A DNA stretch of 64,000 nucleotides. Source: Chloroflexota bacterium. GTDB lineage: Bacteria > Chloroflexota > Anaerolineae > Anaerolineales > VGOW01. Position numbers and translations under genes: made by a program. Each line of letters starts with the position of its first letter. The first letter of the stretch is position 1. Where the stretch lies: assembly GCA_016875735.1 (NCBI GenBank), contig VGOW01000006.1:30855-94854 (forward strand), read 5' to 3'. Below, in pieces: positions 39,070-63,637 of the stretch. The notes beneath the pieces are model-generated. The model saw only the letters and a program-made list of their open reading frames with translations. It was not told the origin of the DNA and searched no databases.

Positions 39070-39365
39070 AAATCAGCTTCGAGCGCGCGGGCGGCTTTGC
39101 CGGGATGCGCGTCGCGCACACCGTTGACACGGACTCGCTTTCAGCCGACGACGCGCGCGAACTGCATCAACTGGTGGAGGCCGCCTGCTTCTTCGATCTT
39201 CCCGCCGTGATCCAGTCGTCGGCTCCGGGCGGCGATCAGTTTCAATACAAACTCACGGTGGAAGCCGGGGGGCGAACGCACACTGTGGAGGCCGGTGACG
39301 CCGCCGCGCCGGAGACTCTACAGCCCCTGCTTCTGCGATTGACGCGGCTGGCTCGAAGCCGTTAA
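39066..39365 (+). CDS. Emfourin-type protease inhibitor
   Basis: 99 residues from the GTG overlapping the protease stop. It starts MKISFERAGGFAGMRVAHTV and continues with LSADDARELHQLVEAACFFDLPA, then QYKLTVEAGGRTHTVEAGD. This is the pattern of emfourin, the inhibitor encoded next to protealysin. The overlapping start couples inhibitor to protease synthesis, so the cell is protected from the enzyme. Assignment rests on both sequence pattern and position. Confidence 0.85.
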   Translation: MKISFERAGGFAGMRVAHTVDTDSLSADDARELHQLVEAACFFDLPAVIQSSAPGGDQFQYKLTVEAGGRTHTVEAGDAAAPETLQPLLLRLTRLARSR

Positions 39366-40447
39366 CAGATTCGCGGTAGCAGTTCGCCCGCCGGAAGATC
39401 GACCACGCGCGAGCCGCCAATGCCCGTGCGGGCCACCACGAGCGACGGATGCTCGGCCACCACTTTGCCGATGCGAACCGCTTCGCGGCCCAGTGCGTGC
39501 GCGCGCATGGCGGCCAACACGGAGTCGGCTTCGGCTTCGGGCACGATGGCAACCAACTTGCCCTCGTTGGCGACGTACAGCGGATCGAGTCCCAGCATTT
39601 CGCAAGCGGCGTGCACCGCCGGTTGAACCGGCACGCGCTTCTCTTCGAATTCGATTCCCACTTTCGAGGCGGCGGCCAGTTCGTTGAGCACCGCCGCCAG
39701 CCCGCCGCGCGTCGCGTCGCGCAAACAATGAATCGAACGGGAGGCGGCCAGCATGGCCCCCACCAATCCGTTAAGCGGCGCGGTGTCGCTTTTGATTTCC
39801 GTCTCGAAATCCAATCCCTCGCGCACCGACATGATCGCCATGCCATGATCGCCCATCGCGCCGCTCACGATCACCGCATCGCCCGGCTGAGCGCGATTAG
39901 CGGCGATGTTCACCTCAGGCGCGATGAGGCCGATACCCGACGTGTTGATGTACAACCCGTCGCCGTGCCCTTTGTTCACCACTTTGGTATCTCCGGCCAC
40001 CAATTGCACGCCCGCTTTCCGGCAGGCTTGGGCCACCGAAGCGACGATTTGGCCGAGCGTCTCCATCGGCAAGCCTTCCTCGATGATGAATCCGGCGCTG
40101 AGGAAAAGGGGTCGCGCGCCGCTCATCGCCAGATCGTTCACCGTGCCGTTCACGGCCAGCTCGCCGATGTCGCCGCCGGGAAAGACCAGCGGGCTGACGA
40201 CGAAGGAATCGGTGGTGAAGGCAAGACGTTGATTGCCGATTGCGCCCGACCCGCCATCCGCGATCTGCCGGAGGTCGATCACGGTTGAATCGCCGAGTTG
40301 GGCGAGGAGATCGTTGCTGAACTGCGGCGCGAAGAGGTGTTCGATCAGATCGGCCATCATCTTACCGCCACTGCCGTGACCCATCACGATTGTTGGGTAG
40401 TTTCTCAGCGGCAGGGGGCAAGTCCAAGAGGCAAAGTTGAGAGCCAT
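39362..40447 (-). CDS. hypE: Hydrogenase maturation protein HypE
   Basis: 361 residues from the ATG at 40447. The PurM-like ATP fold shows MGHGSGGKMMADLIEHLF, TTDSFVVSPLVFPGGDIGEL and CLRDATRGGLAAVLNELA. It ends PRIC, the invariant C-terminal cysteine that carries the carbamoyl and then cyano group made with HypF. It supplies cyanide ligands for the NiFe active site. Downstream of hypD in the hyp series. Confidence 0.95.
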   Translation of the reverse strand: MALNFASWTCPLPLRNYPTIVMGHGSGGKMMADLIEHLFAPQFSNDLLAQLGDSTVIDLRQIADGGSGAIGNQRLAFTTDSFVVSPLVFPGGDIGELAVNGTVNDLAMSGARPLFLSAGFIIEEGLPMETLGQIVASVAQACRKAGVQLVAGDTKVVNKGHGDGLYINTSGIGLIAPEVNIAANRAQPGDAVIVSGAMGDHGMAIMSVREGLDFETEIKSDTAPLNGLVGAMLAASRSIHCLRDATRGGLAAVLNELAAASKVGIEFEEKRVPVQPAVHAACEMLGLDPLYVANEGKLVAIVPEAEADSVLAAMRAHALGREAVRIGKVVAEHPSLVVARTGIGGSRVVDLPAGELLPRIC

Positions 40448-40448
40448 A

Positions 40449-40535
40449 GGCAACTCCGAACTTCCAACTCCAAATCTCAAACGCCCAAACCCGCTTCCGA
40501 TTCTTGGAGTTGGATTTTTGGAGTTTGAGATTCCG
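40449..40535. repeat. Inverted-repeat element with permuted arms at the hypD/hypE junction
   Basis: AATCTCAAAC (40473-40482) pairs with GTTTGAGATT (40523-40532), and CCAACTCC (40464-40471) with GGAGTTGG (40506-40513). The two words occur in the order that prevents one continuous hairpin. It covers the hypD stop and encodes the last residues of HypD. Confidence 0.65.
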
Positions 40536-41622
40536 CGTAGCGGCCATAGCGATAGTAGGCCGCGCACGCGCCCTCGCTCGATACCATCGTCGCCCCGAGC
40601 GGAGTCTGCGGCGCGCACTCTTTGCCGAAGGCCGGGCACTGGTTCGGCTTTTTGAGTCCCTGCAACACTTGGCCGCTGATGCACAGGCTCGACTCTTTGG
40701 TTTCGATAGACTGCACTTCGGGGAAGCGCTGCTCGGCGTCGTAATCGGCATAGGCCGGGCGAAACTTGTAGCCGCTCTGCGGGATGACGCCGATGCCGCG
40801 CCACGGGCGATCGCACGGCTCGAAGACTTGATTGATGATCGCTTGCGCCGGGCGGTTGCCGTCGCGTTGCACCGAGCGGGCATAGGCGTTCTCCACTTCG
40901 GCGCGGCCCTCTTCGAGTTGCTTGACGCACAACAGCACGCCATGCAGAACATCCACCGGCTCGAAGCCAGTGACCACGATGGGCACACGATACTTCTTCA
41001 CCAGCGGCTCGTATTCCCAATAACCCATCACCGTGCAAACGTGGCCGGCCGCCAGAAAACCGTTCACCTGCACTTCGGGCGATTCCATCAGCGCGGAGAT
41101 GGCCGGGGGCACGGTGACGTGCGAGACGAGCATGGCGAAGTTTTGGATTCCCTGCGCCTTCGCCTGCACCACCGCCATCGCGTTGGCGGGCGCAGTCGTC
41201 TCGAAGCCGATGCCGAAGAACACCACCGTTTTGTTCGGGTTGTCGCGGGCGATCTTCAGCGTGTCGAGCGGTGAATACACAATACGCACATCGCCGCCCG
41301 CCGCCCGCACGCTGAACAGATCGCGCTCGGAGCCGGGCACGCGCAGCATATCGCCATACGAAGCGAAGATCACATCGGGGCGCGAGGCAAGGGCGATGGC
41401 CTTGTCGATCAGTTCCAGCGGGGTGACGCACACCGGACAGCCCGGCCCGTGCACCAGATCGATCTCGCTCGGCAAAAGTTGATCGAGGCCGCTTTTGAGG
41501 ATGGAATGAGTCTGCCCCCCGCACACTTCCATGATCTTCCATGAGCGCGTGGCCGCGCGCCGAATCTCGTCGAGCAGGCGCTGGGTCACCGTCTCATCGC
41601 GGTATTCGTCGATGTATTTCAT
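40477..41622 (-). CDS. hypD: Hydrogenase maturation protein HypD
   Basis: 381 residues. Conserved stretches are [54 protein letters not shown] and the iron-sulfur cysteines in [20 protein letters not shown] plus [15 protein letters not shown]. With HypC it carries the Fe(CN)2CO unit. The last ~16 residues ([18 protein letters not shown]) come from a repeat element and are not conserved. Confidence 0.95.
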
Positions 41623-41758: not shown

Positions 41759-42022
41759 CTACGTCGTGCCGTCGGCGAGTTCGGGCATTTCGTCGGCCAG
41801 CATATCCAGTTGGCGCAGCATCTCTAGCGTGCGTTGGGCCTCGGCCTCGTCGAGCTGGCTGATGCCGAAGCCGACGTGAATGATGGTGTAGTCGCCGATC
41901 TGGATCTCCGGCAGATATTCGAGGCAGGCCTCTTTGATCACGCCGCCGAAATCCACCTTGCCCATCTTCATGCCGTTGATGTCGTAAATCTCAATCACCT
42001 TTCCGGGAATGCCAAGACACAT
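41759..42022 (-). CDS. hypC: Hydrogenase assembly chaperone HypC
   Basis: 87 residues beginning MCLGIPGKVIEI, with the essential Cys2, and GDYTIIHVGFGISQLDEAEA. It binds HypD and the large-subunit precursor and shuttles the iron unit. The gene precedes hypD. Confidence 0.94.
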   Translation of the reverse strand: MCLGIPGKVIEIYDINGMKMGKVDFGGVIKEACLEYLPEIQIGDYTIIHVGFGISQLDEAEAQRTLEMLRQLDMLADEMPELADGTT

Positions 42023-42040: not shown

Positions 42041-42093
42041 TTGATTAGTAATTGGTGATTAGTAATTACCACTCACCAATTACCGATCACTGA
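42041..42093. repeat. Inverted-repeat element (GTAATTGGTGA / TCACCAATTAC)
   Basis: Perfect 11-base arms at 42048-42058 and 42073-42083, with gattagtaatt and accgatcactga flanking words. It covers the hypF stop and the gap before hypC. Its vocabulary matches the element at 5582-5700. Confidence 0.75.
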
Positions 42094-44430
42094 CACGGCC
42101 GCCTGCCCTAACGCAATGCCGCCATCGTTGGGGGGGACGAGACGATGGGTGAAGACTTCGAATCCGTCGGCGCGCAGAAGGGCCAGCGCCTTTGCCAACA
42201 GAGTCACATTCTGAAAGACGCCGCCACTGAGGGCAACTTGATTCACGCCGTGCGATTTTCGCAACCGAACACAGACCCTTCGGATCATCGCCGCCACCCC
42301 GTTGTGGAATCGGGCGGCGATGATGGGCGGGGAGACTCCGCCGCGCCAATCGTTCACGATTTGGCGAATGGCGCTGTGCGGCAGAATGAGATCGCCGGAC
42401 AGATCGAAATCGTATGCCGCCGTTTCATCGGGATCGGCAACGGCTTCCAGCTCGATGGCCGCCTGCCCTTCGTAATTGACTTCCTGCCGGAGTCCGATGA
42501 TCGAAGCCGTCGCGTCGAACAATCTCCCCATGCTCGAGGTGAGCGGCGCGTTGAGTCCAATTGTTATTTGCTTTTCCACGATGCTCCGTTCGCTATCCGG
42601 CAGAGCGCGCACGGGAGCGAGATCGGAATCGAGCGGCAGGCCCGCGGCGAGCAAATGGGCGAGCGCGACTCGCGCCGGTTTGCGGGTGGCGGCGTCGCCG
42701 CCGGGGAGGGGAACGTAGGCGAGATGGGCAACGCGCTCGAAGTGTGAATATGTTGCCAGCAGAAATTCGCCGCCCCAGATCGCGCCGTCGGTTCCGTAGC
42801 CCGTGCCGTCGAGCGCCACGCCGATCACCGGATGCTCGCCGTCGAGTCCGTGCTCGGCCATGCAGGCGGCGATGTGCGCGTGATGATGTTGAACGCCGAC
42901 GGCCCTCAACCCCTCGCGCTCGGCGCGGGCCAATGCGTATCGAGTCGCCAGGTAGTTCGGGTGCAGATCGTGGGCGATGATCTGCGGCTGAATGCGAAAG
43001 AGAGACTCGAAGTGCGACACGCCGCTCTCGAACGATTGCAGTGTTTCGTAGTTTTCCATATCGCCGATGTGATGGCTGAGGAAGGCGTAATGATCGCGCG
43101 CCACGCAAAAGGTGTTCTTCAGTTCGCCGCCGACGGCGAGGGTGGGCGGCGCGGCGTGCGGAAGTTTCACCGGGTACGGCGCATAGCCCCGCGAGCGGCG
43201 GATGGGTAGTTCTGCGCCCTCGAAGACGCGCATCACCGAGTCGTCGGTGCGGATGTGGATGTCGCGGTCGTGCAAGAGGAAGGCGTCGGCCAGCGGGGCG
43301 AGGCGGGTGAGGGCCTCGTCGTTGCGGGCGGCAATCGGTTCTTCGGAGAAGTTGCCGCTGGTCATGACCAAAGGATGAAGGAGGAAGGAAGAAGGAGGAA
43401 AACTAAAAAGCAAATGATGCAAAGGAGTGTAGGGGAGCATGACGCCGAGTGTGCGTTGGCGCGGGGCGACCGAGGCCGCGATGGGCGGGGTTGCGTTGCC
43501 GCGTTTCTGCAACAGTACGATGGGCCGCTGGCGCGATTCGAGCAGAGCACGCTCTTCAGTTGAAATGTAGCAGTATTGCTCGATGGCGGCAATGTCGGGC
43601 ATCATAAGCGCGAAGGGTTTGTCGGCGCGACCTTTGCGGCGGCGCAGTTCGGCCACGGCCTCTTCGTTCGTTGCGTCGCAGGCCAGATGGAATCCGCCCA
43701 AGCCTTTGCCGGCGATGATTTTGCCCTGACGGAGAAGTTGTTGGGCAGTGAGAAAAGGAGATTGGAGGATTGGAGAATTCTCCAATCCTCCAATCTCTAA
43801 TCTTACCTGGGGGCCGCAGACCGGGCAGGCCACCGGCTGGGCGTGAAAGCGGCGGTCGCGCGGGTCGTGGTATTCGCGGGCGCAGTCGGCGCACATGACA
43901 AAGGGAGCCATCGTCGTCTGCGGGCGGTCGTAGGGAATATCTTTGATGATGGTGAAGCGCGGGCCGCAGTTGGTGCAGTTGATGAAGGGGTAAAGGTGGC
44001 GGCGGTCGGCGGGGTCGAACAGTTCGCGCAGGCAGTCGTCGCAAATGCAGATGTCGGGGGAGATGGGTTGGAACGCGCCCGGCTCGGGCTGGCTCTCGCG
44101 GATGTCGAACTGGGTGAAGCCGTTGGGCGGCAGGGACTCGGCGGTCACGCGCTCGATGCGCGCCAGCGGCGGCGCTTCGCCGGTGAGCGCCGTGCGGAAC
44201 GATTCCACCGCCGGGGGCGAGCCTTCGATTTCGATGGTGACTCCGGCGGAGGTGTTGAGCACCCAGCCGGTAAGCCCGAGTCGAGTTGCCAGCCCGTACA
44301 CGAACGGGCGGAAGCCCACTCCCTGCACCACTCCGGTGACGGTGAGGCGGTGGCGAACGGTGCGAGGCGCGAGATCAGCCGACTCCCTTTGCAATGTTGC
44401 ATCATCGATGATGTGCGTTGTATTGCTCAT
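42073..44430 (-). CDS. hypF: Carbamoyltransferase HypF
   Basis: 785 residues with all family parts: an acylphosphatase domain (VTGVVQGVGFRPFVYGLATR), paired zinc fingers (CICDDCLREL, CTNCGPRFT, CADCARE, CPVCGPQ), a YrdC domain and a Kae1-like domain with HHHAHIAACMAEHGLDGEHP. It makes the carbamoyl donor for cyanide ligands. Two low-complexity inserts are in frame: LEIGGLENSPILQSPFLTA after the second finger, encoded by a perfect palindrome, and FSFPPSSFLLHP in the YrdC domain before LVMTSGN. Confidence 0.95.
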   Translation of the reverse strand: MSNTTHIIDDATLQRESADLAPRTVRHRLTVTGVVQGVGFRPFVYGLATRLGLTGWVLNTSAGVTIEIEGSPPAVESFRTALTGEAPPLARIERVTAESLPPNGFTQFDIRESQPEPGAFQPISPDICICDDCLRELFDPADRRHLYPFINCTNCGPRFTIIKDIPYDRPQTTMAPFVMCADCAREYHDPRDRRFHAQPVACPVCGPQVRLEIGGLENSPILQSPFLTAQQLLRQGKIIAGKGLGGFHLACDATNEEAVAELRRRKGRADKPFALMMPDIAAIEQYCYISTEERALLESRQRPIVLLQKRGNATPPIAASVAPRQRTLGVMLPYTPLHHLLFSFPPSSFLLHPLVMTSGNFSEEPIAARNDEALTRLAPLADAFLLHDRDIHIRTDDSVMRVFEGAELPIRRSRGYAPYPVKLPHAAPPTLAVGGELKNTFCVARDHYAFLSHHIGDMENYETLQSFESGVSHFESLFRIQPQIIAHDLHPNYLATRYALARAEREGLRAVGVQHHHAHIAACMAEHGLDGEHPVIGVALDGTGYGTDGAIWGGEFLLATYSHFERVAHLAYVPLPGGDAATRKPARVALAHLLAAGLPLDSDLAPVRALPDSERSIVEKQITIGLNAPLTSSMGRLFDATASIIGLRQEVNYEGQAAIELEAVADPDETAAYDFDLSGDLILPHSAIRQIVNDWRGGVSPPIIAARFHNGVAAMIRRVCVRLRKSHGVNQVALSGGVFQNVTLLAKALALLRADGFEVFTHRLVPPNDGGIALGQAAVSVIGNW
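43371..43416. repeat. In-frame repeat stretch in hypF (GGATGAAGG / GGAGGAAGG words)
   Basis: Degenerate purine-rich copies (aggatgaagg, aggaaggaag, aaggaggaa) encode FSFPPSSFLLHP, an insert just before the conserved LVMTSGN of the YrdC domain. Confidence 0.55.
43758..43797. repeat. Perfect 40-base palindrome inside hypF
   Basis: The left arm 43758-43777 (two copies of ATTGGAG-type words) is an exact 20-base complement of the right arm 43778-43797, with no loop. It encodes a 13- to 14-residue insert after the HypF zinc fingers without breaking the frame. Confidence 0.85.
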
Positions 44431-44789: not shown

Positions 44790-45404
44790 ATGACCACGAT
44801 ACTTGAACGCTGGGGACTTGCCGCAGAAGAGCTAACGGAGGTAATTGATGATAATCCAAGCCTTCGGGGTTTTATGATCGGCTATATCGGCGAGTTCAAG
44901 CTGCGCAAACTTCTGCTTGCCGAAGAACGCATCTCACACGTTCACAAGTATGATGATCATGACAGAACGCATAAGAACGATGTGGCCATCTCATACGAAG
45001 GCTACGAGTTTACTTTCGAAGTAAAGTCGCTCCAGACGAACTCCATCAGGAAGATCGGCGATGTTTACAGCGGCGATTTTCAGTGTGACGCCAGCGACAG
45101 AAGGCCTGTCCGGTTGCCCAACGGTGAAACCGTTGAGACCACTTGCCTTTTAGTTGGTGGTTTTGACCTTGTGGCTGTGAATCCGTTTGCCTTTCGAGAG
45201 CAATGGGATTTTGCTTTTGCATTGAACCGAGACTTGCCAAGAAGCAAGAGCAACAAATACACACCTAAACAGCAGAAGTATTTACTTGCAACATCGGTCA
45301 AAATAACTTGGCCGCTACAATCCCCGTTTGCGACTGACCCCTTCCCCTTGTTGGATGAGTTGATTGCAGAAAAAGAAAGAAGACGGAAGAAACAAAAAGG
45401 CTAA
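44790..45404 (+). CDS. Type II restriction endonuclease, PD-(D/E)XK-like
   Basis: 204 residues. A candidate nuclease core is [20 protein letters not shown], with Asp and the E-x-K pair at the usual spacing. The rest is charged and lower in GC than the surroundings. The context (controller before, methylase convergent after) supports the call more than sequence does. The stop overlaps the methylase stop by four bases. Recognition site unknown. Confidence 0.7.
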
Positions 45405-46165
45405 CGAATCTTCACAAATACCAAAAAATAGGAATGGTTCTTGCGGGCGTGAACCTGCTTTTTTAAGCGGCTCACGCTCGCGTTATTAAGCCTGACGACG
45501 ACGAATAAATCTTTGGCATAGAAGCCCATGGAGGCATACTCGTTAATAAGTTCGACGTGCGTCAGGTTCTGTTTGCCGGCGCTTACCTCATCTTGGCACT
45601 TTACGATGAAGATTCCCTTCTCGCAGAGAACTCTGTGAGCTTCCTTGCCTGCCTTGAAGTATAGGTCAAGCACGGCCTTATGCCATTTGGGGCCGCCATC
45701 GCCGCCGTTCCCATCCGAATACGCATTCCTAAAACTCTTGTAACTCCCCACACCGCCGAGGTGGTCAGCGTTGCGCCTAAGCAAACCTTCCATATAGGGG
45801 GGGTCCAACACCACACAGTCTATAGACTTGTCTGAATATGGCAACTTGCGGCAGTCGACGCCGGTCTTGAGGTCGGTTGCCTTTATAATATATTTGCCTT
45901 CGGGAACATTCCGCCAAAAAACACCTTGCCCATAAGTAACATCTGCAACCAGCGAGCCCTCGGGGACATGGAGAGCAAGGAGCTTAGGGAAGACTTCAGC
46001 ATTACCGTTCATATACGCAGATTGCACGACATCCGATGTGGTGATCCCGCCTTGCACTCTCTTCCGCGGATGCTCCTCACTCCACAGGCTTTCTTGCTTA
46101 TATCTCCCTTCTCGTACTCGCGCGTGCTTACTCTTCTGTGCCGGCTTATATTTGGTTTCCTTCAT
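45401..46165 (-). CDS. DNA methyltransferase (N6-adenine or N4-cytosine type)
   Basis: 254 residues. The catalytic motif is [14 protein letters not shown] and a likely SAM motif is [18 protein letters not shown]. The DPPY form points to amino-group methylation. It protects sites cut by the convergent nuclease. The upstream flank is occupied by an IS element, so its original promoter may have been altered. Codon use and GC differ from the hyp genes around it, pointing to acquisition by transfer. Confidence 0.85.
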
Positions 46166-46198
46166 ACCATTACTGATCCTCCGCCAATCAACATTCTT

Positions 46199-47291
46199 AG
46201 GACTTACGCAAAACTGAGTGTTTGACGAGCAGGCAAAAAGCCGATAAGTTTGGGAGTATGCGACCCAAAACTCACAACGTCACACGCTTGGACTATTGCC
46301 AGTATCTTCTGGTCAGCCAAATCAATTATACGTTGACGAACTTTGCCGACCACAGCGAGACATTCAGCCATGATGCTCTCAATCGCTATGTGGCGGGAGA
46401 ACGCCTGCCGCCGAAATTGATCTGGGACAATGTCAAAAGTCAGGTGGTCCAACCCCCCAACGGGTTTCTGGTCTTCGATGATACCGTGGCCGACAAGAAC
46501 TATTCGCATGAGATCGAATTGGTGCGACGCCAGTACAGCGGCAATGCCCACCGGGTCATCAAAGGCATCGGGATTGTCACGTGTGTCTATGTCAACCCGG
46601 ATACGGATCAGTTTTGGATCATCGATTACCGGATCTATGATCCCGATGGAGATGGCAAGACCAAACTGGATCATCTGCAGGACATGTTGCTGAACTGCGT
46701 TCACCAGAAGCAACTGCCATTCTGGGCGGTCTTGATGGACAGTTGGTATGCCACCAAAGAAATCATGTTGACGATTGAAAAGTGCCGAAAAATCTACTAC
46801 TGTCCGCTCAAAGATAATCGTCAAGTCGATGAGTCCGGCGGCACCCAACCTTATCGCCGTGTGGATGCTTTGGACTGGACCGAGGCCGAAAAGCAACACG
46901 GCAAACTAATCAAGATCAAAGGTTTTCCTAGCCATCACAAAGTGAAACTCTTCCGGGTTGTGCTTTCTACCAAGCGCACGGACTATGTTGTGACCAACGA
47001 CATGGCGCAAGACGACCCGCAGGCCGTACAAGAGGTGTGTGGCTTCCGTTGGAAGGTCGAGCAGTTTCATCGTGAAACCCAGCAACTAACTGGCTTGGAA
47101 GGTTGCTAATGTCGTAAGGCTAGGATTGTCCGCAATCACATTGCTTGTGCTGTTTTGGTTTGGGTTCGTCTCCAGCAAGTGGCCAATGAAACCAAGCAGA
47201 CTGTCTATCGCATCAAACACGGGTTGTTGTCTGACTACCTCCGGCAACAACTCCGGTCTCTTAGTATTCAAATGGCTTTTGCGTAAGTCCT
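46199..47291 (+). mobile_element. IS701-like insertion sequence with intact ends
   Basis: Terminal inverted repeats AGGACTTACGCAAAA (46199-46213) and TTTTGCGTAAGTCCT (47277-47291) are perfect over 15 bases. They enclose one transposase frame. ATTCT occurs just outside both ends (46193-46197 and 47292-47296), but one base off on the left, so a target duplication is uncertain. It lies 33 bases upstream of the methylase start. Confidence 0.85.
46258..47286 (+). pseudogene. IS701-family transposase with one nonsense codon
   Basis: The DDE-type catalytic core shows FLVFDDTVADKNYSHEI, AVLMDSWYATKEIM and FRWKVEQFHRETQQLTGLEG. Translation stops at a TAA at 47107-47109 (codon 284). The same frame then continues CRKARIVRNHIACAVLVWVR to a TAA at 47284-47286, inside the right terminal repeat. 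A single CAA-to-TAA change explains it. The element is probably no longer autonomous. Confidence 0.85.
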
Positions 47292-47359: not shown

Positions 47360-48010
47360 TCACCTCTCCTCAACCTGCTTCTTCACCCATTCCACCCACG
47401 CCTCCATCCCCTCGCCGGTGCGAGAGGAGAGGGGGAAGATGGGCGCGTTGAGGTTGAGCATTTCGATGCCGCGCCGGAAGTAGTCCACGTCGAAGTCGAA
47501 GACGCTCAACAGATCCGCTTTGTTGAGCACCACCGCGTCGGCGCGGGCGAACATGCCCGGATACTTGTACGGTTTGTCGTGCCCTTCGGGGGCGCTGGCG
47601 ACGACGACCGCCCGATGCGCGCCCAACTCGAACTCGGCGGTGCAAACCAGATTGCCCACGTTTTCGATGAACAGCAAATCCAAATTGGCGAGGGGTAGTT
47701 GAGGGAGCGCGGTGCGGATCATCGGCGCGTCGAGGTGGCAACTGCCGCCGGTGTTGATTTGGGTGACCGGGATGCCGCGCGCGGCGATGGTGTCGGCGTC
47801 AATGCGCGAGGCAAGGTCGCCTTCGATCACGCCGGGGCGGACGCCGTCACCGAGCGCCTGCGCCGTCGCCAGAATCAGAGTCGTTTTGCCCGCGCCGGGC
47901 GAGGCCATGAGATTGAGAACGAGCAGGCCGTGCTCGTCGAAGGCGGCGCGGTTCTCGGCGGCCACTGCGTCGTTTGCGCTGAGGATTTCTTTGGCGACGT
48001 GTATCTTCAT
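47360..48010 (-). CDS. hypB: Hydrogenase nickel-incorporation GTPase HypB
   Basis: 216 residues from the ATG at 48010 (another ATG at 48013 is possible; GAGGCGG spacing favours the inner one). The P-loop is MASPGAGKTTLILATAQALG. GDLASRIDADTIAARGIPV, NTGGSCHLDAPMI and VLNKADLL are typical. It drives nickel insertion with HypA. No N-terminal histidine stretch is present, so it does not store nickel. Confidence 0.94.
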   Translation of the reverse strand: MKIHVAKEILSANDAVAAENRAAFDEHGLLVLNLMASPGAGKTTLILATAQALGDGVRPGVIEGDLASRIDADTIAARGIPVTQINTGGSCHLDAPMIRTALPQLPLANLDLLFIENVGNLVCTAEFELGAHRAVVVASAPEGHDKPYKYPGMFARADAVVLNKADLLSVFDFDVDYFRRGIEMLNLNAPIFPLSSRTGEGMEAWVEWVKKQVEER

Positions 48011-48018
48011 CATCCGCC

Positions 48019-48366
48019 TCAATCATCCACATCGATGCTCTCGACGCGGAACTCGCGCCCGCCGGTCACTTGCAAGCGGCCGCTCGCGCAGTTGGGGCAG
48101 GCGTCGGCCAGCGGGGCGCGGGCGGCGAATCGGTGGCCGCAATCCCAACAAGTGACGGTGGTCGGCTCGCGGCGGAAGCGGAGGGCCGCGCCTTCGGCCA
48201 GCGTGCCGCGGCTGAGGATGTCGAAATAAAACTGAACCGAGTCATCGACGATGCTCGATAGTTCGCCGATGACCAGATCGATGGCGAGGATGCGATGCCC
48301 CCCGGCTTGCTGAGAGGCCTCCAGCGCCACGGCCAGCAAGCCTTGGGTGATGGGAAGTTCGTGCAT
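48019..48366 (-). CDS. hypA: Hydrogenase nickel chaperone HypA
   Basis: 115 residues starting [18 protein letters not shown], with the N-terminal nickel site (Met-His). The zinc site comprises [21 protein letters not shown]. It delivers nickel to the large subunit. Located directly before hypB. Confidence 0.94.
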
Positions 48367-48387: not shown

Positions 48388-48885
48388 CTATTGAACGGGC
48401 GCGAGCGTGTGCCCCCACTGCTTCAACTGCTCCACCACGTTGCCGACCAACGTGCCCACTTGCCGGGCCACCACTGGCGACAATTCTAACCCAATGTCGA
48501 GCAGTTCGGGCCGCACGCCCCACAGCACGATGTTGCGCGGATACACGCCTTTGAACTTGGCGGCGAACAGCATATCGGGCACGCCGATTTGATGCGGGGA
48601 GATTTTCATCGAGAGGAACGACGGCACGTCATCGCCTTCGAGCCGGAGCAGTTCGCCGGGGGCGATGTCGGCCTGCACCGCGTCCACGATGAGCAGATTT
48701 TCCACCCCTTCGAGATAATAGAGGAGGTCCAGACCCAGCGTGCCTCCATCCAGGATCAGGACCTCCTCAGGCACATGATATTGAGCGATCAGCCGCTTCA
48801 CCACCGCCACGCCCACGCCCTCGTCGGCCATGAGCATGTTGCCGACTCCGAGCACGAGCGTTTTGGCGTGAGGCTCTTCTATCAT
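48388..48885 (-). CDS. [NiFe] hydrogenase maturation endopeptidase
   Basis: 165 residues of the HyaD/HybD/HupD family. Nickel-sensing residues are seen in GVGNMLMADEGVGVAVVKRL (Glu), LDGGTLGLDLL (Asp) and ISPHQIGVPDM (His). It removes the C-terminal peptide of the large subunit after the final active-site histidine. Its ATG overlaps the large-subunit stop (ATGA), so it is matched to that subunit. Confidence 0.93.
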   Translation of the reverse strand: MIEEPHAKTLVLGVGNMLMADEGVGVAVVKRLIAQYHVPEEVLILDGGTLGLDLLYYLEGVENLLIVDAVQADIAPGELLRLEGDDVPSFLSMKISPHQIGVPDMLFAAKFKGVYPRNIVLWGVRPELLDIGLELSPVVARQVGTLVGNVVEQLKQWGHTLAPVQ

Positions 48886-50633
48886 GATCCTCCGTTCCGG
48901 CCATTGAAGCGGAGCAGCGGCCCCGAAAAGCCGTGCGCCGATTGCAGAGTCACTTCGTTGATCTCATTGCCCTCGAGGTTGAGCAGATGCACGCCGCAGG
49001 CCATGCACGGATCGAAGGAGTGAATGGTGCGCAGAACTTCGAGCGGCATCTTCGGGTCGGCGATGGGCGTGCCCAGCAACGCCGATTCGTACGCGCCCAT
49101 TTGGCCTTTGGCGTCGCGCGGCGAGCAATTCCACGTGCTGGGCACCACCGCTTGATAGTTGAATATCTTCTTGTCTTTGATGTGGATCCAATGCCCCAGC
49201 GATCCGCGCGGCGCTTCGGTGTAGCCCCAGCCCTTCACATCGGCGGGCCACTTTTCCGGATCCCACACGTTCCAATCGTGGATGCTGAGATCGCCGCTCT
49301 TCATGCTGGCCGCGAGTTCATCCACCCACTCATTCAATTTCTCGGCGGTCACCACCGTTTCGATACAGCGGGCGGCGGTGCGCCCGAGCGTGGAGAACAA
49401 CACTTCCGGTCCGGCGCCCAGCGTCTTCAGCACCGCGCCGACGACTTCCTTCACTCGCGGATGCCCGCTGGCGTAAGCCACCAGCATCCTCGCCAGCGGC
49501 CCCACTTCCATTGGATGATCGGCCAGGCGCGGCGCTTTCATCCATGTGTACTTTTTGTCGGTGTCCAAAAATTCGTAGGGCGGCTTGGGACCGCTGTACT
49601 TCGGTTTCGTTTCGCCGTCCCACGGATGCTTGCTCGCCGAGTCGTCGTCGGACTCGTACCACGAGTGGGTGATGTATTCGGCGATCTGCTGATGATCCAC
49701 CGGATGCACTTTGCTCAAGTCTTTGCCCAGAATGTAACCCTGCGGCAGCCACGGGGAGCCGTCGGCTTGGGGGAAGTCGCCGTACGAAAGGTAGTTGCCC
49801 AGCCCGCCGCCGATGCCGGCCCAGTCGAGATAGAACGGGGCGACAGCCAGCACATCGGGCAGATACACTTTATCCACGAACTCTTTGGCGCGAGTGAACA
49901 TGCCCTTGAGTTGGGCGATGGTGTCGGCGTTGATGGCCGCCTGACTGGTCGGGTCGATGGGTGAGGCCATGCCGCCAACGAGGTACGTTTGCAAGTGCGG
50001 GTTCTTGCTTCCGAGCAGGGCATGAGCGCGGATGACATCGCGCTGCCAATCGAGGGCCTCGAGGTAATGGGCCACCGCCATGAGGTTGGCTTCCGGGGGC
50101 AGTTTGTAAGCCGAGTGCCCCCAATAGGCGTTGGCAAACGGCCCCAACTGCCCGGTGTTGACGAAGGCGGCCAGTTTGTCTTGAATGCCTTTGAAATAGT
50201 CGGCGCTGGATTTGGGCCAGTCGGAGATCGACTGCGCCAGATCCGAAGTGCCTTTGGGGTCGGCGCTCAGCGCGCTCACCACATCCACCCAATCGAGCGC
50301 GTGCAGATGATAGAAGTGGATGACGTGATCCTGAACGTACTGAATGCCTTCGATGATGTTGCGCAGAATGCGCGCGTTGTTGGGGATTTTCACCCCGAGA
50401 GCGTTTTCAACTGCTCGCACGGAGCAGACGGCGTGAACCGTAGTTCAAACGCCTCATATGCGTTGGGTGAGCGCCCATGCCTCTCGCGGGTCGCGGCCTT
50501 TGAGGATCAACTCGATGCCCCGAAACATGGTGCTCGAGCTCCAAGCGTCGGTGACCGCGCCGCCGTCCACCTGCACTTCGATTCGCAAGTGGCCTTCGAT
50601 ACGAGTGATGGGATCGATTGCAATTTTTGCCAT
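48882..50633 (-). CDS. [NiFe] hydrogenase large subunit with two in-frame TGA codons (predicted selenocysteines)
   Basis: 583 residues when read from the ATG at 50633, which has AAGGAGG eight bases upstream. The N-terminus [20 protein letters not shown] is canonical. In the L1 motif, normally RxCGxC, codons 60 (50454-50456) and 63 (50445-50447) are both TGA: R-I-TGA-G-V-TGA-T-T-V-H, then normal sequence ([11 protein letters not shown]). The L2 motif near the C-terminus is standard, DPCMACGVH, followed by a 34-residue tail that the protease should remove. The enzyme is the catalytic subunit of a periplasmic Hyb-type H2-oxidising complex. Site-specific recoding as selenocysteine is the simplest reading, since TGA is an ordinary stop elsewhere in the window. 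Confidence 0.85.
50411..50427 (-). promoter_or_regulatory. Candidate bacterial SECIS hairpin
   Basis: Read on the minus strand, CTGCTC and GAGCAG form a perfect six-pair stem with loop CGTGC (G in the second position). The loop begins 24 bases after the second TGA and 33 after the first, a spacing normal for bacterial selenocysteine insertion hairpins. A second possible stem (GGCG...CGCC with TGAAC/GTTCA) starts right after the first TGA. Confidence 0.5.
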
Positions 50634-50700
50634 CCTATGTCCTCCTTGAAAAGTTTGTCTCAGTTCTCAGCGTGCTCCGCATTCTCGGCGGGTAAAGGCA

Positions 50701-51846
50701 TCAAGCGCGTGATCGGCCTCCTTCCGGGAAGGGGTTGAAGTAGCGCACCACAACACCGTAGGCAAGGAAGCCGCCAGCGCCCAAACCGACGGTGATCATG
50801 ATCTCGATCCACGACGGGAAGTACGGAGTCAGCGTCGGCTCGGCCAGCCCGATCCAACTGACGACCAATCGGTTGATCAGGGTGCCGATCAAAATGAACA
50901 CTCCGGCCCAGAACGGCCCCGCCGAATGCCCCACCAGCCGCGAATACAAAATGCCCGCCGGGATGAGCACGCCGAGAATGATCTCCAGCCAGGCAATGAC
51001 GCCGAGAGTGTCGGGCATGAGCAGCATATCCAACTCGCCCGCGCCCATCGTGTCGCCGAGTTTGACGGCGGCGTACAGGGCCAGCACCAACCCCATCGCC
51101 TGCCCGATGCGGCGGAACAATTCGCGATCCATCTTCAGCCCCCTCACCCGCCAAATCAGATTCACGGCGATGGCCGCCGTCGCCAAACCGGCCACAATGG
51201 ATTGAAGCAGGAACATGAGCGGCAGGGCGGGCGACCACCACAGCGGGTGCAGTTTGTGCGGCATGAGCAGAAACAACGAGCCGAGCGAGGACTGGTGTAG
51301 CATGGAGAGGACGATGCCCGCCCCGGCGATCAAATAGATACTGCGGTGAATCCACTCGATGGGCACCCGCACGTTCCACTTTTCGAGAAAGATCGGCGCC
51401 ACCTCCAGAATCAGAATCACGGTGTAGAGGGTGATGCACAGGCTCACTTCTTCCAGAAACGAGTGGAGGTTGATGAACTGCGGGTTGAAGATGTTGTAGA
51501 ACTGCGGCCAGCGGCCAATGTCGAGGAAGAGCAGAATGCCCACGATGGCGTAGCCGAGAAAGCCCGCCACCACCGCCGGGCGGATCACGGCTTCGTAATG
51601 CTGACGCCCGAAAAAGTAGGTGATGAGCGAGATGGTGAAGGCCGCTCCGGCCACCGGGATCAGGAACAGATCAATCGAGATCCAAACGCCCCACGGATAG
51701 TGGTCGGTCATGTTCGTCGTCGGCCCCAACCCCACGACGAGTCGATAGATGGACAACCCAACGCCGATCAGAGTCAGCAGCAACAGCGGATAGAAGCTGG
51801 CCGGGATCGGTTTATCGGATTTGAATGGTTTGAGCAGTGCGGCCAT
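50701..51846 (-). CDS. HybB/NrfD-family membrane subunit of hydrogenase
   Basis: 381 residues from the ATG at 51846, chosen because AAGGA lies at good spacing; an ATG at 51858 is in frame. About nine to ten membrane helices, beginning LLLLTLIGVGLSIYRLVVGL, with the NrfD-type TDHYPWGVWISIDLFLIPVA. It moves electrons from the iron-sulfur subunit into the quinone pool and may couple to proton movement. It follows the HybA-like gene and precedes the large subunit, as in hybOABC operons. Confidence 0.88.
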   Translation of the reverse strand: MAALLKPFKSDKPIPASFYPLLLLTLIGVGLSIYRLVVGLGPTTNMTDHYPWGVWISIDLFLIPVAGAAFTISLITYFFGRQHYEAVIRPAVVAGFLGYAIVGILLFLDIGRWPQFYNIFNPQFINLHSFLEEVSLCITLYTVILILEVAPIFLEKWNVRVPIEWIHRSIYLIAGAGIVLSMLHQSSLGSLFLLMPHKLHPLWWSPALPLMFLLQSIVAGLATAAIAVNLIWRVRGLKMDRELFRRIGQAMGLVLALYAAVKLGDTMGAGELDMLLMPDTLGVIAWLEIILGVLIPAGILYSRLVGHSAGPFWAGVFILIGTLINRLVVSWIGLAEPTLTPYFPSWIEIMITVGLGAGGFLAYGVVVRYFNPFPEGGRSRA

Positions 51847-51848
51847 AG

Positions 51849-52712
51849 TTATGCCCATCCTTCCCGCTTGGAAATGGCGCGGATACTGGCCAGGAGCAAC
51901 GGGCCGCCGATGAGGATGGTGGGGAGGAAGATGTTGGCGCTCCGCTCGCTCAACGCCGGGATCGGCTCATTGCCCAGTGACGGCAGGCCGAGATTCTCGA
52001 ACGGGGTGGCCGAGAGATACATCACCGACGTGCCGCCCGCATCATCTTTTCCGTACACTTTGCCGACGTAGCGATCTGGCTCCGCCGCCAACCGGCTCTC
52101 GGCTTCGGCGATGAGGTCGCCGCGCCGCCCCCAAACGAGCGCGCCTGTGGGGCAGATTTCCGCGCAGGCCGTGCCCAACCCCTTCTCCAATCGATCGTTG
52201 CACAGCGTGCATTTCTGGACTTTGGGGATGACCTCTTCCCATTCGAATCGGGGCACGTCGAAGGGGCAGGTGTACATGCAGTATCGGCAGCCGATGCAGC
52301 GACCGGCGTCGTAAGTGACGGGGCCGGTGGACGATTTCTGCAAGGCCTGCACCGGACAGCCGCTCACGCAGGCCGGGTCAACGCAGTGCATACACTGGCG
52401 CTTGACGAAGGAATAGTTTTCTTCTTCGCGGTAGAGTTGAATGAGAGTCCACGTGTCGCCGGAGAGTTCGCGGGGCGCGTCGTAGATTCCGCCTTCGCCC
52501 CCCGGCTCGGCGGTGGTGCTGTTCCACTGGCGGCAGGCGTTGGTGCAGGCATTGCAGCCCACGCACATCGTCGCGTCGTACAACATGCCGATGTAATTGT
52601 TCGGGTCGTCGCCGGTGGGTGTGGCCGCCGAGGCTGTTGCTGGCGCCAGCAACGCGCCGCCGATGCCCAGCCCGGCAACTTTTATGAAATCCCTGCGGCT
52701 GATCGATGGCAT
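51849..52712 (-). CDS. HybA-like 4x[4Fe-4S] ferredoxin subunit with Tat signal
   Basis: 287 residues. Twin-arginine signal SRRDFIKVAGLGIGGALLAP. Four cluster motifs: MCVGCNACTNACRQ, QCMHCVDPACVSGCP, RCIGCRYCMYTCPFD and KCTLCNDRLEKGLGTACAE with ICP. A C-terminal helix (ANIFLPTILIGGPLLLASIR) anchors it at the outer face. It passes electrons from the small subunit to the HybB-like protein. Confidence 0.92.
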   Translation of the reverse strand: MPSISRRDFIKVAGLGIGGALLAPATASAATPTGDDPNNYIGMLYDATMCVGCNACTNACRQWNSTTAEPGGEGGIYDAPRELSGDTWTLIQLYREEENYSFVKRQCMHCVDPACVSGCPVQALQKSSTGPVTYDAGRCIGCRYCMYTCPFDVPRFEWEEVIPKVQKCTLCNDRLEKGLGTACAEICPTGALVWGRRGDLIAEAESRLAAEPDRYVGKVYGKDDAGGTSVMYLSATPFENLGLPSLGNEPIPALSERSANIFLPTILIGGPLLLASIRAISKREGWA

Positions 52713-52721
52713 TTCGGCCTC

Positions 52722-53852
52722 CTATTTCTTCTCTTCCGAATTGTTGCCGCCGCTTTCGTCGGGATGATCTTTCTTCGAGAGCTGCATGTAGGCCGCCGTT
52801 CCAGCCGCGCCGATGGCCAAACCGGTGAGGCCGCCGATGAGCGCGGCCGTGGGCGGGGCAATGGTTTGCACTGGCCCCACCACCGGCGCAAAAGTGGAAG
52901 GCGCTCCGAACTTCTGGATGTCGGCGACGTTGTACAGGCCCATCTCCCAAAAGTCCGGCTCGGAGCAACCGATGCAGCCGTGGCCGGAGCCCACCGGCCA
53001 GTTGGCGCCGTCGTTCCAGCGCACCGAGGGGCAGTTGTGGAATGCGACCGGCCCTTTGCACCCCAACCGATAGAGACACCAGCCCTTTCGATGCCCTTCG
53101 TCGCCCCATTGCAGAGCAAACTCTCCGGCGTCGAAGTGGCCGCGCCGCTCGCAGTTGTCGTGGATGCGCGCGCCGTAGGCAAACAGCGGGCGGTTGAGTT
53201 GATCCATCGCCGGGAGTTCGCCGAAGGTGAGGAAGTGCACCACGGTGGCGGTGAGGTTGACGACGTTGTAGGGACAGCCGGGCAAATTGAGAACGGGTTT
53301 ATCTTTCACCAAATCCAAAGTCGAAACGGCGCCGGTGGGATTGGGCGCGGCTTTGGGGATGCCGCCGAACGCCGCGCAGCTGCCCACGGCGATCACCGCC
53401 GCCGCGCTGGAGACCGCCTCATTCAGAATATCCACCGCCGTCCGCCCGCCGATGCAGCAATAGATGCCGTCTTCGGCGGTGGGGATCGATCCTTCGACGA
53501 TCACCAAATGGCCGCCGGCATCGATCGTTTGCTTTTTGGCCTCTTCGGCCAAGTTGCCGGAAGCGGCCATGATTGTCTCGTGGTAATCGACCGAGAGAAC
53601 GTCGAGCACCACTTCCGCCGCCGTGGGCCGCGAGGCGCGCAAGAACGACTCACTGCAACCGGCGCAATCTTGAAACTCCAGCCAGATCACCGGCGGGCGC
53701 TTCACGGCGGCCAGCGACTCGGCAATCTGAGTGGCGTAGCGCTTGGGCAGGGCCAGCGCGGCGGCCATCAATGCTGAAAACTTGAGAAACTCTCGCCGCG
53801 ACATGCCCTGCCGGGCAAGATGCGACTCGAGGCCTTCAGTGAATCGATTCAT
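52722..53852 (-). CDS. [NiFe] hydrogenase small subunit with Tat signal and C-terminal anchor
   Basis: 376 residues. Tat signal MSRREFLKFSALMAAALALP. Iron-sulfur ligands are seen in WLEFQDCAGCSESFLRA, VGSCAAFGGIPKAAPNPTGA, NLPGCPYN, IHDNCERRGHFDAGEFALQW, RLGCKGPVAFHNCP and GHGCIGCSEPDFWE. A C-terminal helix (TAALIGGLTGLAIGAAGTAA) anchors it. The protein carries the large subunit out through Tat. All its cluster cysteines are ordinary TGC/TGT codons. First gene of the hydrogenase operon. Confidence 0.94.
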   Translation of the reverse strand: MNRFTEGLESHLARQGMSRREFLKFSALMAAALALPKRYATQIAESLAAVKRPPVIWLEFQDCAGCSESFLRASRPTAAEVVLDVLSVDYHETIMAASGNLAEEAKKQTIDAGGHLVIVEGSIPTAEDGIYCCIGGRTAVDILNEAVSSAAAVIAVGSCAAFGGIPKAAPNPTGAVSTLDLVKDKPVLNLPGCPYNVVNLTATVVHFLTFGELPAMDQLNRPLFAYGARIHDNCERRGHFDAGEFALQWGDEGHRKGWCLYRLGCKGPVAFHNCPSVRWNDGANWPVGSGHGCIGCSEPDFWEMGLYNVADIQKFGAPSTFAPVVGPVQTIAPPTAALIGGLTGLAIGAAGTAAYMQLSKKDHPDESGGNNSEEKK

Positions 53853-54037: not shown

Positions 54038-54691
54038 CTATTCAATCCATCCCCGCCGCACGGCTTCGGCAATGGCCTGCGCCCGGCTCGACGCGCCGAT
54101 CTTCGCCAAAATTTCCTGCACGCGGCGTTTGGCGGTGGCCTCGCTCCAAAAGAATTTTTCGGCCAGCTCTTTGTTGCTCGCCCCACTGGCAATGGCGGCC
54201 AACACTTTTAATTCCTCGTCGGCCAGCCCGGCATCCTGCCGCGCGCGCTCTTGGGCCAACCGCTGATAATCTGCAAAGGCGGTGGAAACGAGCGACGGGC
54301 TCAACAATTTTTCGCCGCGCATCACCGCCCGAATCGATTCCGGCAAACTTTCGTGCGAGGCGCTTTTGAGCAAATAGCCGTGCACCCCCGCTTCCACTGC
54401 TTGCCGCAAATAACCCTCATCGTCGTAAGTGGTGAGGACAATGATCTTCACCGCCGGGTAGGAATGGCGCACACGGCGGGCGGCGTCAATCCCGTTCTGC
54501 CCTTTCATCTGAACGTCGAGCAAAAGGACATCTGCCTCGCGCCCGGCCAACGACGGAAGAATCTCACTGCCGCTGGCCGCCTCGCCCACCACCTCAATAT
54601 CCGCGTTTCCCGAAAGCAAACTTCGCAGGCCGTGCCGCACCACCGGATGATCGTCCACAATGAGCACGCGAATGGGCGAAGGATGGGTCAT
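54038..54691 (-). CDS. NarL/FixJ-family response regulator
   Basis: 217 residues. The receiver domain is complete: VLIVDDHPVVRHGLRSLL, phospho-acceptor in EADVLLLDVQMKGQNGID, VLTTYDDEGYLRQAV, and LLKSASHESLPESIRAVM. The C-terminal LuxR-type helix-turn-helix is LKVLAAIASGASNKELAEKF with WSEATAKRRVQEILAKIGAS. It pairs with the sensor kinase encoded just upstream. Its position before the hydrogenase operon makes hydrogenase genes a plausible target; this is inference. Confidence 0.92.
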   Translation of the reverse strand: MTHPSPIRVLIVDDHPVVRHGLRSLLSGNADIEVVGEAASGSEILPSLAGREADVLLLDVQMKGQNGIDAARRVRHSYPAVKIIVLTTYDDEGYLRQAVEAGVHGYLLKSASHESLPESIRAVMRGEKLLSPSLVSTAFADYQRLAQERARQDAGLADEELKVLAAIASGASNKELAEKFFWSEATAKRRVQEILAKIGASSRAQAIAEAVRRGWIE

Positions 54692-54694
54692 GGC

Positions 54695-56251
54695 TCAATC
54701 CAGATATTGCGGCGAGGGCAGATGCAATTTGATCTTGGTCCCCTGCCCCCGCGCCGACGACACCGACAACTCCGCGCCGATGCCCTTCGCCCGTTCCTTC
54801 ATCCCGATCAAACCGAGATGTTCCCCCGCCATTGTGGGCGCCGACTCCGGATCGAAACCCACGCCGTCATCCTCGATGGACACCCACAGCCGTTCGGCGG
54901 CGAAGTCGAGCGCGACCGGCGCGCGCTTGGCCTGCGCGTGCGCGGCGACGTTGTGCAGAGCCGCTTGAGCGATTCGATAGATAGCGATCTCGATCTCGTG
55001 CGGCAATCGGCGTGGGCGGCCGCTCACACTCAACGCGCAGTCAATGTTGAAGGTGACGGCAAACGTCCGCGCAAACTGTTGGAGCGCCATCGCTAACCCC
55101 AAAGCGTCGAGCGCCGGTGGATGGAGATCGTAGATCACACGCCGGATTTCGGTTTCGGCTTCCGAGAGCAATTGCTGGGCGCGAGTGAGGCATTGCGCGG
55201 CCCGTTCCGAATCGGCGGACAGGGATTGGCGGGCGGCCTGTGTTTCGTACAACGCGCCGACGATGATTTGAGTCACTCCATCGTGCATGTCATGGGCAAT
55301 GCGCGCCTGCGTGTCCTCTTGCACGCGATACGATTCGCTCAACAATCTTTGGAGTTGATGCGCTTTTTCCGACAGCGCGATCTGCGCCGCTTCCAGTTCG
55401 TGTGTGCGCTGGTTGACCTTTTGCTCGAGGCTGGCGTTGAAATGGCGGACGGTGTCGTACAGCCGCGCGTTCTCCACCGACGCGCTGACTTGCCGGGCGA
55501 TGGCGGCCACGAAGTCGCGCTGGTTCTCACCGAAGTGCCCGGCCTCGGGGCTGGCCAACTGCAGAAGCCCCACCAACTTGCCTTTCACTTCCAGCGGTGC
55601 GCAGGCCACCGAGCGAAAGCCTTCGCAGATGCACAGATCGGAGGTGCATCGCCCATCGTCGCCCACGTCGCTGGCAAGCAACACTTGGCGCGTCTCCACT
55701 GCCTGCCCGCACAGGCAATGGCCGGGCTTCAACTTTGCTTCCTTCTCAGCCATTTCGACGGAGATGCCGCGATGCGCTTCGAGCTGCAAGCCGGGGCCGC
55801 CGTTGCCCTGAAGGAAAACGATACCGGCGGCGGCATCAAGGGTCTCCATCGTTTTTTCCAACGCCGCCGTGAGAGTCTCCTGCAAATCGAGCGTTTGGTT
55901 GGCGGCCAGCGCTAGCGAATTCAGCGCGTCCAGTTCGGCGTTGCGTTGAGCCAGTTCTGCTTTAGAGCCAATATAGGCTTCAGCCGTCCGGCTGGCCCAG
56001 CGCAGACTGAGCCACGTAAGCGCCGGGCCGATCAGCCCCAAAACGATCAGGCCGAGCACGGTGAGCCACGGCCAACCGGCTTCTTTGATATGACGAGAGT
56101 TCTCGAACAGCGTGAAGGAGATGCCCATCACGGCCATGAGGGTGGGGATCCCCCAGCACACGACGCGCAATGTCCAAGGCAGGGTGGCACGGGGGCCCTG
56201 CCCGGCTGGCCCAGAAATTTCAGCAGTTACCTTTTTGAGGAAGTGGTTCAC
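54695..56251 (-). CDS. GAF-domain sensor histidine kinase (HisKA_3/NarX-like)
   Basis: 518 residues from a GTG at 56251. Two membrane helices (about 30-75), a coiled stretch, and a GAF domain near residues 120-270 with clustered cysteines (KPGHCLCGQAVETRQVLLAS and RCTSDLCICEGF) that could bind a cluster or metal. The dimerisation helix has IAHDMHDGVTQIIVGALYET (phospho-histidine). ATPase motifs include DDGVGFDPES and HLGLIGMKERAKGIG. The redox-type cysteines suggest oxygen or redox sensing, an inference. Confidence 0.9.
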   Translation of the reverse strand: MNHFLKKVTAEISGPAGQGPRATLPWTLRVVCWGIPTLMAVMGISFTLFENSRHIKEAGWPWLTVLGLIVLGLIGPALTWLSLRWASRTAEAYIGSKAELAQRNAELDALNSLALAANQTLDLQETLTAALEKTMETLDAAAGIVFLQGNGGPGLQLEAHRGISVEMAEKEAKLKPGHCLCGQAVETRQVLLASDVGDDGRCTSDLCICEGFRSVACAPLEVKGKLVGLLQLASPEAGHFGENQRDFVAAIARQVSASVENARLYDTVRHFNASLEQKVNQRTHELEAAQIALSEKAHQLQRLLSESYRVQEDTQARIAHDMHDGVTQIIVGALYETQAARQSLSADSERAAQCLTRAQQLLSEAETEIRRVIYDLHPPALDALGLAMALQQFARTFAVTFNIDCALSVSGRPRRLPHEIEIAIYRIAQAALHNVAAHAQAKRAPVALDFAAERLWVSIEDDGVGFDPESAPTMAGEHLGLIGMKERAKGIGAELSVSSARGQGTKIKLHLPSPQYLD

Positions 56252-63511: not shown

Positions 63512-63637
63512 AAAAACCGTCTCACCCTGGGGGCTGATTCTCACCGTTCGCGCTTGCGGCCGCAAGCGGGCTAATCGCCGACGGAGTATCACCTACTTAC
63601 ATAGGAGCAGCCGATCCAGGCCTTACGAGTCCGGTCT
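63510..63637 (-). ncRNA. Candidate structured small RNA 1 (about 127 bases)
   Basis: Transcribed leftwards from a promoter at 63644-63673. The RNA would contain a perfect 18-base palindrome CGCTTGCGGCCGCAAGCG, and an outer stem CCGTC / GACGG with inner GGC-GATT / AATC-GCC. It ends in a run of seven U (63510-63516) that abuts the DUF3800 stop. No reading frame of note. No known RNA family recognised. Confidence 0.5.

Follow-up and report, generated by a model that had tools for sequence, protein, structure and literature searches.

The window, a stretch of 64,000 nucleotides from a Chloroflexota bacterium, contains an operon for a group 1 [NiFe] hydrogenase with predicted Tat export (Table 1). 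In the large-subunit gene both codons of the L1 nickel ligands are UGA. Judging from comparison with related genes, both are very likely decoded as selenocysteine (Sec), probably with one shared SECIS element, and nickel would then be held by two L1 selenolates and two L2 thiolates. It is also likely, if somewhat less so, that this is a natural and widespread type of [NiFe] hydrogenase whose nickel carries two selenium ligands, one terminal and the other shared with iron; that this type is absent from the 2026 inventory of selenoproteins (PMC13188914) and was missed because gene callers start past the UGA codons; that the bridging selenium came first (CxxU is seen, UxxC never, among the matches listed); and that one SECIS element serves two UGA codons nine bases apart.

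Table 1. Features of the hydrogenase locus; coordinates are those of the window.
Feature	Coordinates	Strand	Similarity or remark
[NiFe]-hydrogenase large subunit, 583 residues if both L1 UGAs are translated	48882..50633	-	PF00374, 776 bits
UGA codon 60, first L1 nickel ligand (position of Hyd-2 Cys61)	50454..50456	-	
UGA codon 63, second L1 ligand (position of Hyd-2 Cys64)	50445..50447	-	bridging by homology
L2 motif DPCMACGVH, residues 541-549	48987..49013	-	Cys543 and Cys546 retained
Shine-Dalgarno-like AAGGAGG	50641..50647	-	7 nt 5' of ATG
Predicted SECIS hairpin CUGCUC-CGUGC-GAGCAG	50411..50427	-	loop starts 23 nt past UGA63, 32 nt past UGA60
Hydrogenase small subunit, Tat signal, proximal motif CAGC	52722..53852	-	TIGR00391, 427 bits (cut-off 179.5); PF14720
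HybA-like iron-sulfur subunit	51849..52712	-	NF008134, 302 bits (cut-off 263)
HybB/NrfD-like membrane subunit	50701..51858	-	HybB model, 245 bits (below cut-off 450); PF03916
HyaD/HybD maturation endopeptidase	48388..48885	-	
HypA nickel chaperone	48019..48366	-	
HypB nickel insertion GTPase	47360..48022	-	
HypF carbamoyltransferase	42073..44430	-	
HypC chaperone	41759..42022	-	
HypD	40477..41622	-	
HypE	39362..40480	-	start not fixed

When the frame beginning at ATG 50633 is opened through TGA, its sole internal stops are the TGA codons at residues 60 and 63, and the gene ends with TGA followed by TAA. This bears out the first-pass annotation, which had read the frame as a large subunit with TGA at both L1 ligands and cysteines in L2 (DPCMACGVH). 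Residues 3-549 (547 residues) align to solved large subunits of group 1, the best match being 3myr_B (713 bits). In this type of structure alignment the window L1 falls on RICGVC and L2 on DPC..C..H. Both motifs are present in one PF00374 chain, with UGA for cysteine in L1. DPCMACGVH is followed by a C-terminal tail, and the adjoining gene encodes a HybD-type protease, consistent with a predicted C-terminal cleavage site. The tail (48885-48986, minus strand) seems longer than that of many relatives, whose matches often stop near residue 563.

In [NiFe] hydrogenase structures the first cysteine of each pair is a terminal ligand and the second bridges nickel and iron. Residues 60, 63, 543 and 546 of the window protein correspond to Cys61, Cys64, Cys546 and Cys549 of E. 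coli Hyd-2, described as the four nickel ligands (PMC11212049). By homology, Sec60 would be a terminal nickel ligand and Sec63 would bridge nickel and iron. Nickel in UxxU enzymes would thus have a terminal and a bridging selenium ligand, and in CxxU enzymes the bridging one only.

The standard open reading frame starts at GTG 50420, within the loop of the predicted SECIS hairpin, and its product lacks L1, just as had been anticipated for an annotated start at about 50420. Public protein models follow the same pattern. Among the best 120 of 8000 scored public homologues, 104 lack L1 and keep L2, and 103 of these start within a few residues of the stretch right behind L1. Such models, starting past the UGA codons, are the likely reason why the double-Sec form stayed unnoticed. 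One might suppose that the shorter L1-less protein, which the gene callers pick and which prevails among these public homologues, is the functional product and that the upstream part is regulatory. However, it would miss two of the four nickel ligands, the upstream frame is conserved in the relatives listed (RIEGH), and the other 16 of the 120 homologues, with cysteines in RxCGxC, are full-length single chains of 577-581 amino acids. A functional short product is hardly credible.

A pattern scan of contigs produced at least 594 matches and at least 564 relatives; the 80 best relatives were retained (L013-L092). L025, with N letters where L1 should be, was left out of this set. The resulting 80 rows (the window and 79 of the best 80 of at least 564 relatives) comprise 54 UxxU, 9 CxxU and 17 CxxC genes. 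A survey of the class (297 genomes, requested completeness at least 90%) gave, at E <= 1e-100, 48 matches spread over 46 genomes. Forty of these were retrieved (L105-L144), with 14 UxxU, 3 CxxU and 23 CxxC loci. Besides the window's own match, five fragments (G087, G069, G200 twice, G224) and the matches in G253 and G108 were left out; an in-frame stop was reported in none of these seven. Eleven of the 40 loci duplicate genes of the first set, so that the 120 rows, window included, reduce to 109 distinct L1 stretches. Drawn from the best 80 of at least 564 relatives and from the class survey, these are 61 UxxU, 11 CxxU, 37 CxxC and no UxxC.

Stops were counted from the first aligned codon to L2. 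In the 119 genes listed, window excluded, codon 60 is TGA in 67 and codon 63 in 79, and no other codon of the part counted is an in-frame TGA. The L2 pattern DPC..C..H is present in the window gene and in all 119 relatives listed (79 + 40). The lone other stop among these genes is a TAG at codon 26 of L126, a CxxC relative; another start site, an error or recoding could account for it.

The window assembly consists of 150 contigs, and one might suspect a pseudogene in decay or an error of sequencing or assembly. This is extremely improbable: UxxU recurs in 61 distinct stretches listed, from many assemblies, the 119 genes have no TGA elsewhere, and the window operon is undamaged. As a general account, error is refuted by this recurrence. 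The confinement of TGA to codons 60 and 63 agrees with the first-pass annotation, which had considered random errors at both sites unlikely and had proposed a search for homologues with U or C at L1; many do carry TGA at the same codons. An in-frame UGA in a conserved gene could also mean that these organisms read the codon as one of the standard amino acids. There is next to no chance of this, as UGA is found nowhere else before L2 in the 119 genes listed, terminates the window large-subunit gene itself and exchanges with cysteine codons, and the genome has tRNA-Sec, selA, selB and selD.

The 62 TGA-bearing named loci among the best 80 of at least 564 relatives include 28 from Chloroflexota (19 UxxU, 9 CxxU), 29 from Nitrospirota and one from Myxococcota. 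The remaining four have no phylum given, one of them being titled Deltaproteobacteria. Close to the window's own lineage the gene has a patchy distribution. The L1 region was sought by DNA in four genomes of the same genus (G305, G375, G376, G377) and matched in none; for G305 there was no protein match at E <= 1e-100 in the class survey. Given this absence, the operon may have been gained recently or lost often. The same-order relatives examined are CxxC (G128, G183, G329; L146-L148). These three loci and L150, likewise CxxC, stand outside the state counts.

Exchange of Sec and cysteine among relatives is a recognised mark of selenoproteins (PMC1794560), and here the in-frame UGA codons are aligned to redox cysteines of homologues. 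In a quick maximum-likelihood tree (82 rows, unrooted) the UxxU, CxxU and CxxC states interleave. The three states require at least 13 changes on this tree; the counts by site are 10 at codon 60 and 9 at codon 63. If only starred branches are counted, UxxU still needs at least seven changes, CxxC at least seven and CxxU at least four. The 12-row clade of the window has four UxxU, three CxxU and five CxxC rows. E. coli HyaB and HybC are on very long branches and 25 of the 79 inner branches are open; with the root thus unplaced, the tree makes no claim whether Sec or cysteine came first.

The window RNA 3' of the second UGA reads ACUACGGUUCACGCCGU-CUGCUC-CGUGC-GAGCAG, its last three blocks forming a candidate SECIS hairpin. 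Its energy is -7.5 kcal/mol bare and -8.2 kcal/mol with three flanking bases on each side. Published rules for bacterial SECIS elements give a loop of 3-9 nt, a stem of 4-16 bp, a G in the first two loop positions, a distance of 16-37 nt from the UGA and a minimum free energy of at most -7.5 (PMC13188914). The window hairpin conforms to them with its stem of 6 bp, CGUGC loop and distances of 23 and 32 nt, the energy being just at the limit. As both distances lie inside the range, one hairpin could serve both UGA codons. By itself the window fold is unexceptional (z -1.84 and -1.51), and Rfam gave no match near the L1 site up to E = 10.

Among the relatives the hairpin was counted as a fixed-position stem of 6 bp or as the bulged variant of the Nitrospirota branch, both defined after viewing the sequences. 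Among the loci listed it occurs in 57 of the 61 distinct TGA 45-mers (41 six-bp, 16 bulged) and in none of the 37 distinct CxxC ones; before merging of duplicates the counts are 75 of 80 TGA and 0 of 40 CxxC rows. Both forms are missing from four distinct TGA genes (L034, L036, L074, L077). When the same peptides were recoded synonymously, a mean of 2.9 hairpins in 61 and a maximum of 10 were obtained (2000 draws). Compensatory pairs are seen at positions 18-32 (UA, AU, GC) and 19-31 (GC, CG). The third-position entropy of codons 69, 70, 72 and 73 is 0.00-0.35 bits in TGA genes versus 1.31-1.92 in CxxC genes. Only this fixed-position definition told the groups apart; a search for hairpins of any kind failed to do so, with mean stems of 5.9 (UxxU), 6.0 (CxxU) and 6.1 (CxxC) and a lower mean energy in CxxC than in the TGA groups. 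The covariation of this putative SECIS-like hairpin supports Sec decoding.

UGA60 always occurs together with UGA63 (68 of 68 rows with UGA60 among the 120 listed, window included), and 12 rows are CxxU. This could mean that selenium was gained first at the bridging ligand, or else that the spacing of the SECIS element suits the second codon better. A rival reading is that only the second UGA, the one closer to the hairpin, is reliably read as Sec, the first giving mostly cysteine or another residue or termination, and that the enzyme is mixed. UGA63 without UGA60 is seen in 11 distinct stretches and the reverse never among the matches listed, and 23 nt is more central within the SECIS range than 32 nt is. 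However, UGA60 is kept in 61 distinct stretches, from Chloroflexota, Nitrospirota and others, though a cysteine codon is one base away, and 32 nt is still within the published range. We consider reliable decoding of one codon only to be very improbable, and Sec at both codons remains the preferred reading.

All four genes whose presence had been proposed as a check were found in the window genome, which is 97.8% complete: selA (552 bits), selB (350 bits, across two stretches of one frame), selC (tRNA-Sec of the SeC type, anticodon TCA, 76 bits) and selD (383 bits). Together with the TGA-bearing homologues and the covarying hairpin they support the double-Sec active site that the first-pass annotation had predicted. 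Among the genomes of the relatives listed, selA scored over the cut-off in 57 of 61 TGA-bearing and 13 of 17 CxxC genomes. Three of the four TGA genomes without such a score, G001, G036 (with a selA fragment) and G041, have tRNA-Sec; in G365, also TGA-bearing, neither selA over the cut-off nor tRNA-Sec was detected. At E <= 1e-9 tRNA-Sec was found in 28 of 33 genomes, and four of the five others have selA (G359, G362, G367, G006). In the L1-read genomes of the class survey, which overlap with the relatives' selA set, selA is present in 17 of 17 TGA versus 18 of 23 CxxC genomes (Fisher p = 0.06); the association is weak since so many CxxC genomes also have selA. The SelD gene of the window genome (L101:1441-2502, minus strand) is itself a UGA gene with a UxxK motif (SCAGUAAK), the motif given for SelD in the 2026 review (PMC13188914).

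The operon is intact, with all six hyp genes beside genes in a HybOABCD-like order. As in E. coli Hyd-2, the order is small subunit, HybA, HybB, large subunit, HybD, and the large subunit has the same four-ligand L1 and L2 motifs; however, HybC has cysteine at the L1 ligands where the window gene has UGA at both. The small subunit carries iron-sulfur cysteines and a Tat signal, as in group 1. The large subunit scores below the cut-offs of the narrow E. coli-type models (PRK10170, PRK10467) and of HysA, with 606 bits against the HybC model (cut-off 969), and thus the classification goes no further than a group 1 [NiFe] enzyme in a Hyb-like operon. The O2-tolerant enzymes of group 1d are marked by a proximal cluster with six cysteines in the small subunit. 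The proximal motif of the window small subunit is CAGCSES, its Hyd-1 counterpart being CTCCSES; the comparison covers this motif and so the first of the extra cysteines.

Natural selenium ligands to nickel in [NiFe]-type sites are known from HysA, the [NiFeSe] enzyme of Desulfovibrio and Desulfomicrobium, and from Vhu and Fru of methanogens. There, however, Sec is in L2, at the equivalent of Hyd-2 Cys546 (PMC11212049; UxxC in PMC13188914), whereas the window protein has cysteines in L2 and UGA codons in L1. The first L2 residue of the pair being cysteine rather than Sec, it does not belong to the Hys type; its H2_NiFeSe_large score is 411.5 bits against a cut-off of 780. Two Sec residues in a former CxxC, encoded by UGA codons nine bases apart, are predicted in a Prx-like oxidoreductase, a putative mercuric-reductase metal-binding protein and the FmdB family, none of which is a hydrogenase.

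The 2026 inventory, by its authors the most comprehensive, comprises 119 selenoprotein families or subfamilies (PMC13188914). Its hydrogenase rows are the alpha subunits of the F420-reducing and methylviologen-reducing enzymes (UxxC) and a delta subunit (CxxU). Its Table 1 has no L1 double-Sec hydrogenase, and UxxU appears there only in the three other families; as that table has no separate row for HysA, absence from it is not proof. A 2022 review gives the same hydrogenase families in the part concerned (PMC9312934), and the word hydrogenase is absent from the main text of deep-Sep (PMC12013277). In the accessible parts of the open literature, as distinct from subscription papers and preprints, we found no report of natural L1 Sec in hydrogenases. 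This is in line with the earlier statement that no case with both L1 ligands replaced was known.

The closest experimental parallel is a set of engineered Hyd-2 variants with Sec at Cys61, Cys64, Cys546 or Cys549, made singly by UAG recoding (PMC11212049). Sec at either L1 site was tolerated and the enzyme active, and each variant oxidised H2, at a lower level. The sections of that paper dealing with these variants mention neither a double variant nor Sec at L1 in nature. The first-pass annotation had supposed that the selenium ligands may alter oxygen tolerance and catalytic bias. The variant with markedly different voltammetry was the L2 variant C546U, and hence this analogy gives little reason to expect that selenium at L1 would shift the catalytic bias strongly.

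A possible sequence of events is as follows. SelB bound to the hairpin would deliver Sec-tRNA at both codons. Inserting Sec twice in such close succession would have a low efficiency, which speaks against this reading. Maturation of the large subunit by the Hyp proteins and HybD would then take the usual course, since neither L2 nor the C-terminal cleavage site departs from the standard. In operation the enzyme would oxidise H2, with electrons passing via the HybA-like and HybB-like subunits towards quinones. Selenolates, being more acidic and, once oxidised, more easily re-reduced than thiolates, would help the site to recover after oxidative damage; of all steps proposed, this benefit is the least certain. 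For the known [NiFeSe] enzymes, protection of nickel from irreversible overoxidation is named as the likely advantage of Sec (PMC13188914), and an easier recovery from oxidation is proposed for the window enzyme too.

In the literature covered, the natural selenium of [NiFe] sites is one L2 ligand, and hydrogenase chemistry has been much concerned with what it does for H2 production, H2 inhibition and the protection of nickel (PMC11212049, PMC13188914). The window gene, if read as proposed, would encode a naturally occurring enzyme in which both L1 ligands are selenium, including the one that links nickel to iron. UxxU enzymes with their close CxxU and CxxC relatives would provide a ready-made series for testing the role of each selenium. 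The range of bacteria with selenium hydrogenases would also widen, as these are given as sulfate-reducing and methanogenic microorganisms only in the relevant part of PMC13188914. Many public models of the L1-UGA hydrogenase would then lack half of the nickel site.

Several other elements were observed in the window. Between hypB and hypF (44790-47109) there are a 204-aa open reading frame with no Pfam match, a DNA methylase-like frame and a DDE transposase, on mixed strands, and the hyp cluster appears to be interrupted here by an insertion. A NarL-type response regulator and a sensor histidine kinase (54038-56251, minus strand) are encoded upstream of the operon on the same strand and are possible regulators of the hydrogenase. 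A DUF3800-III RNA was found at 63514-63637 on the minus strand (Rfam, 66.6 bits).
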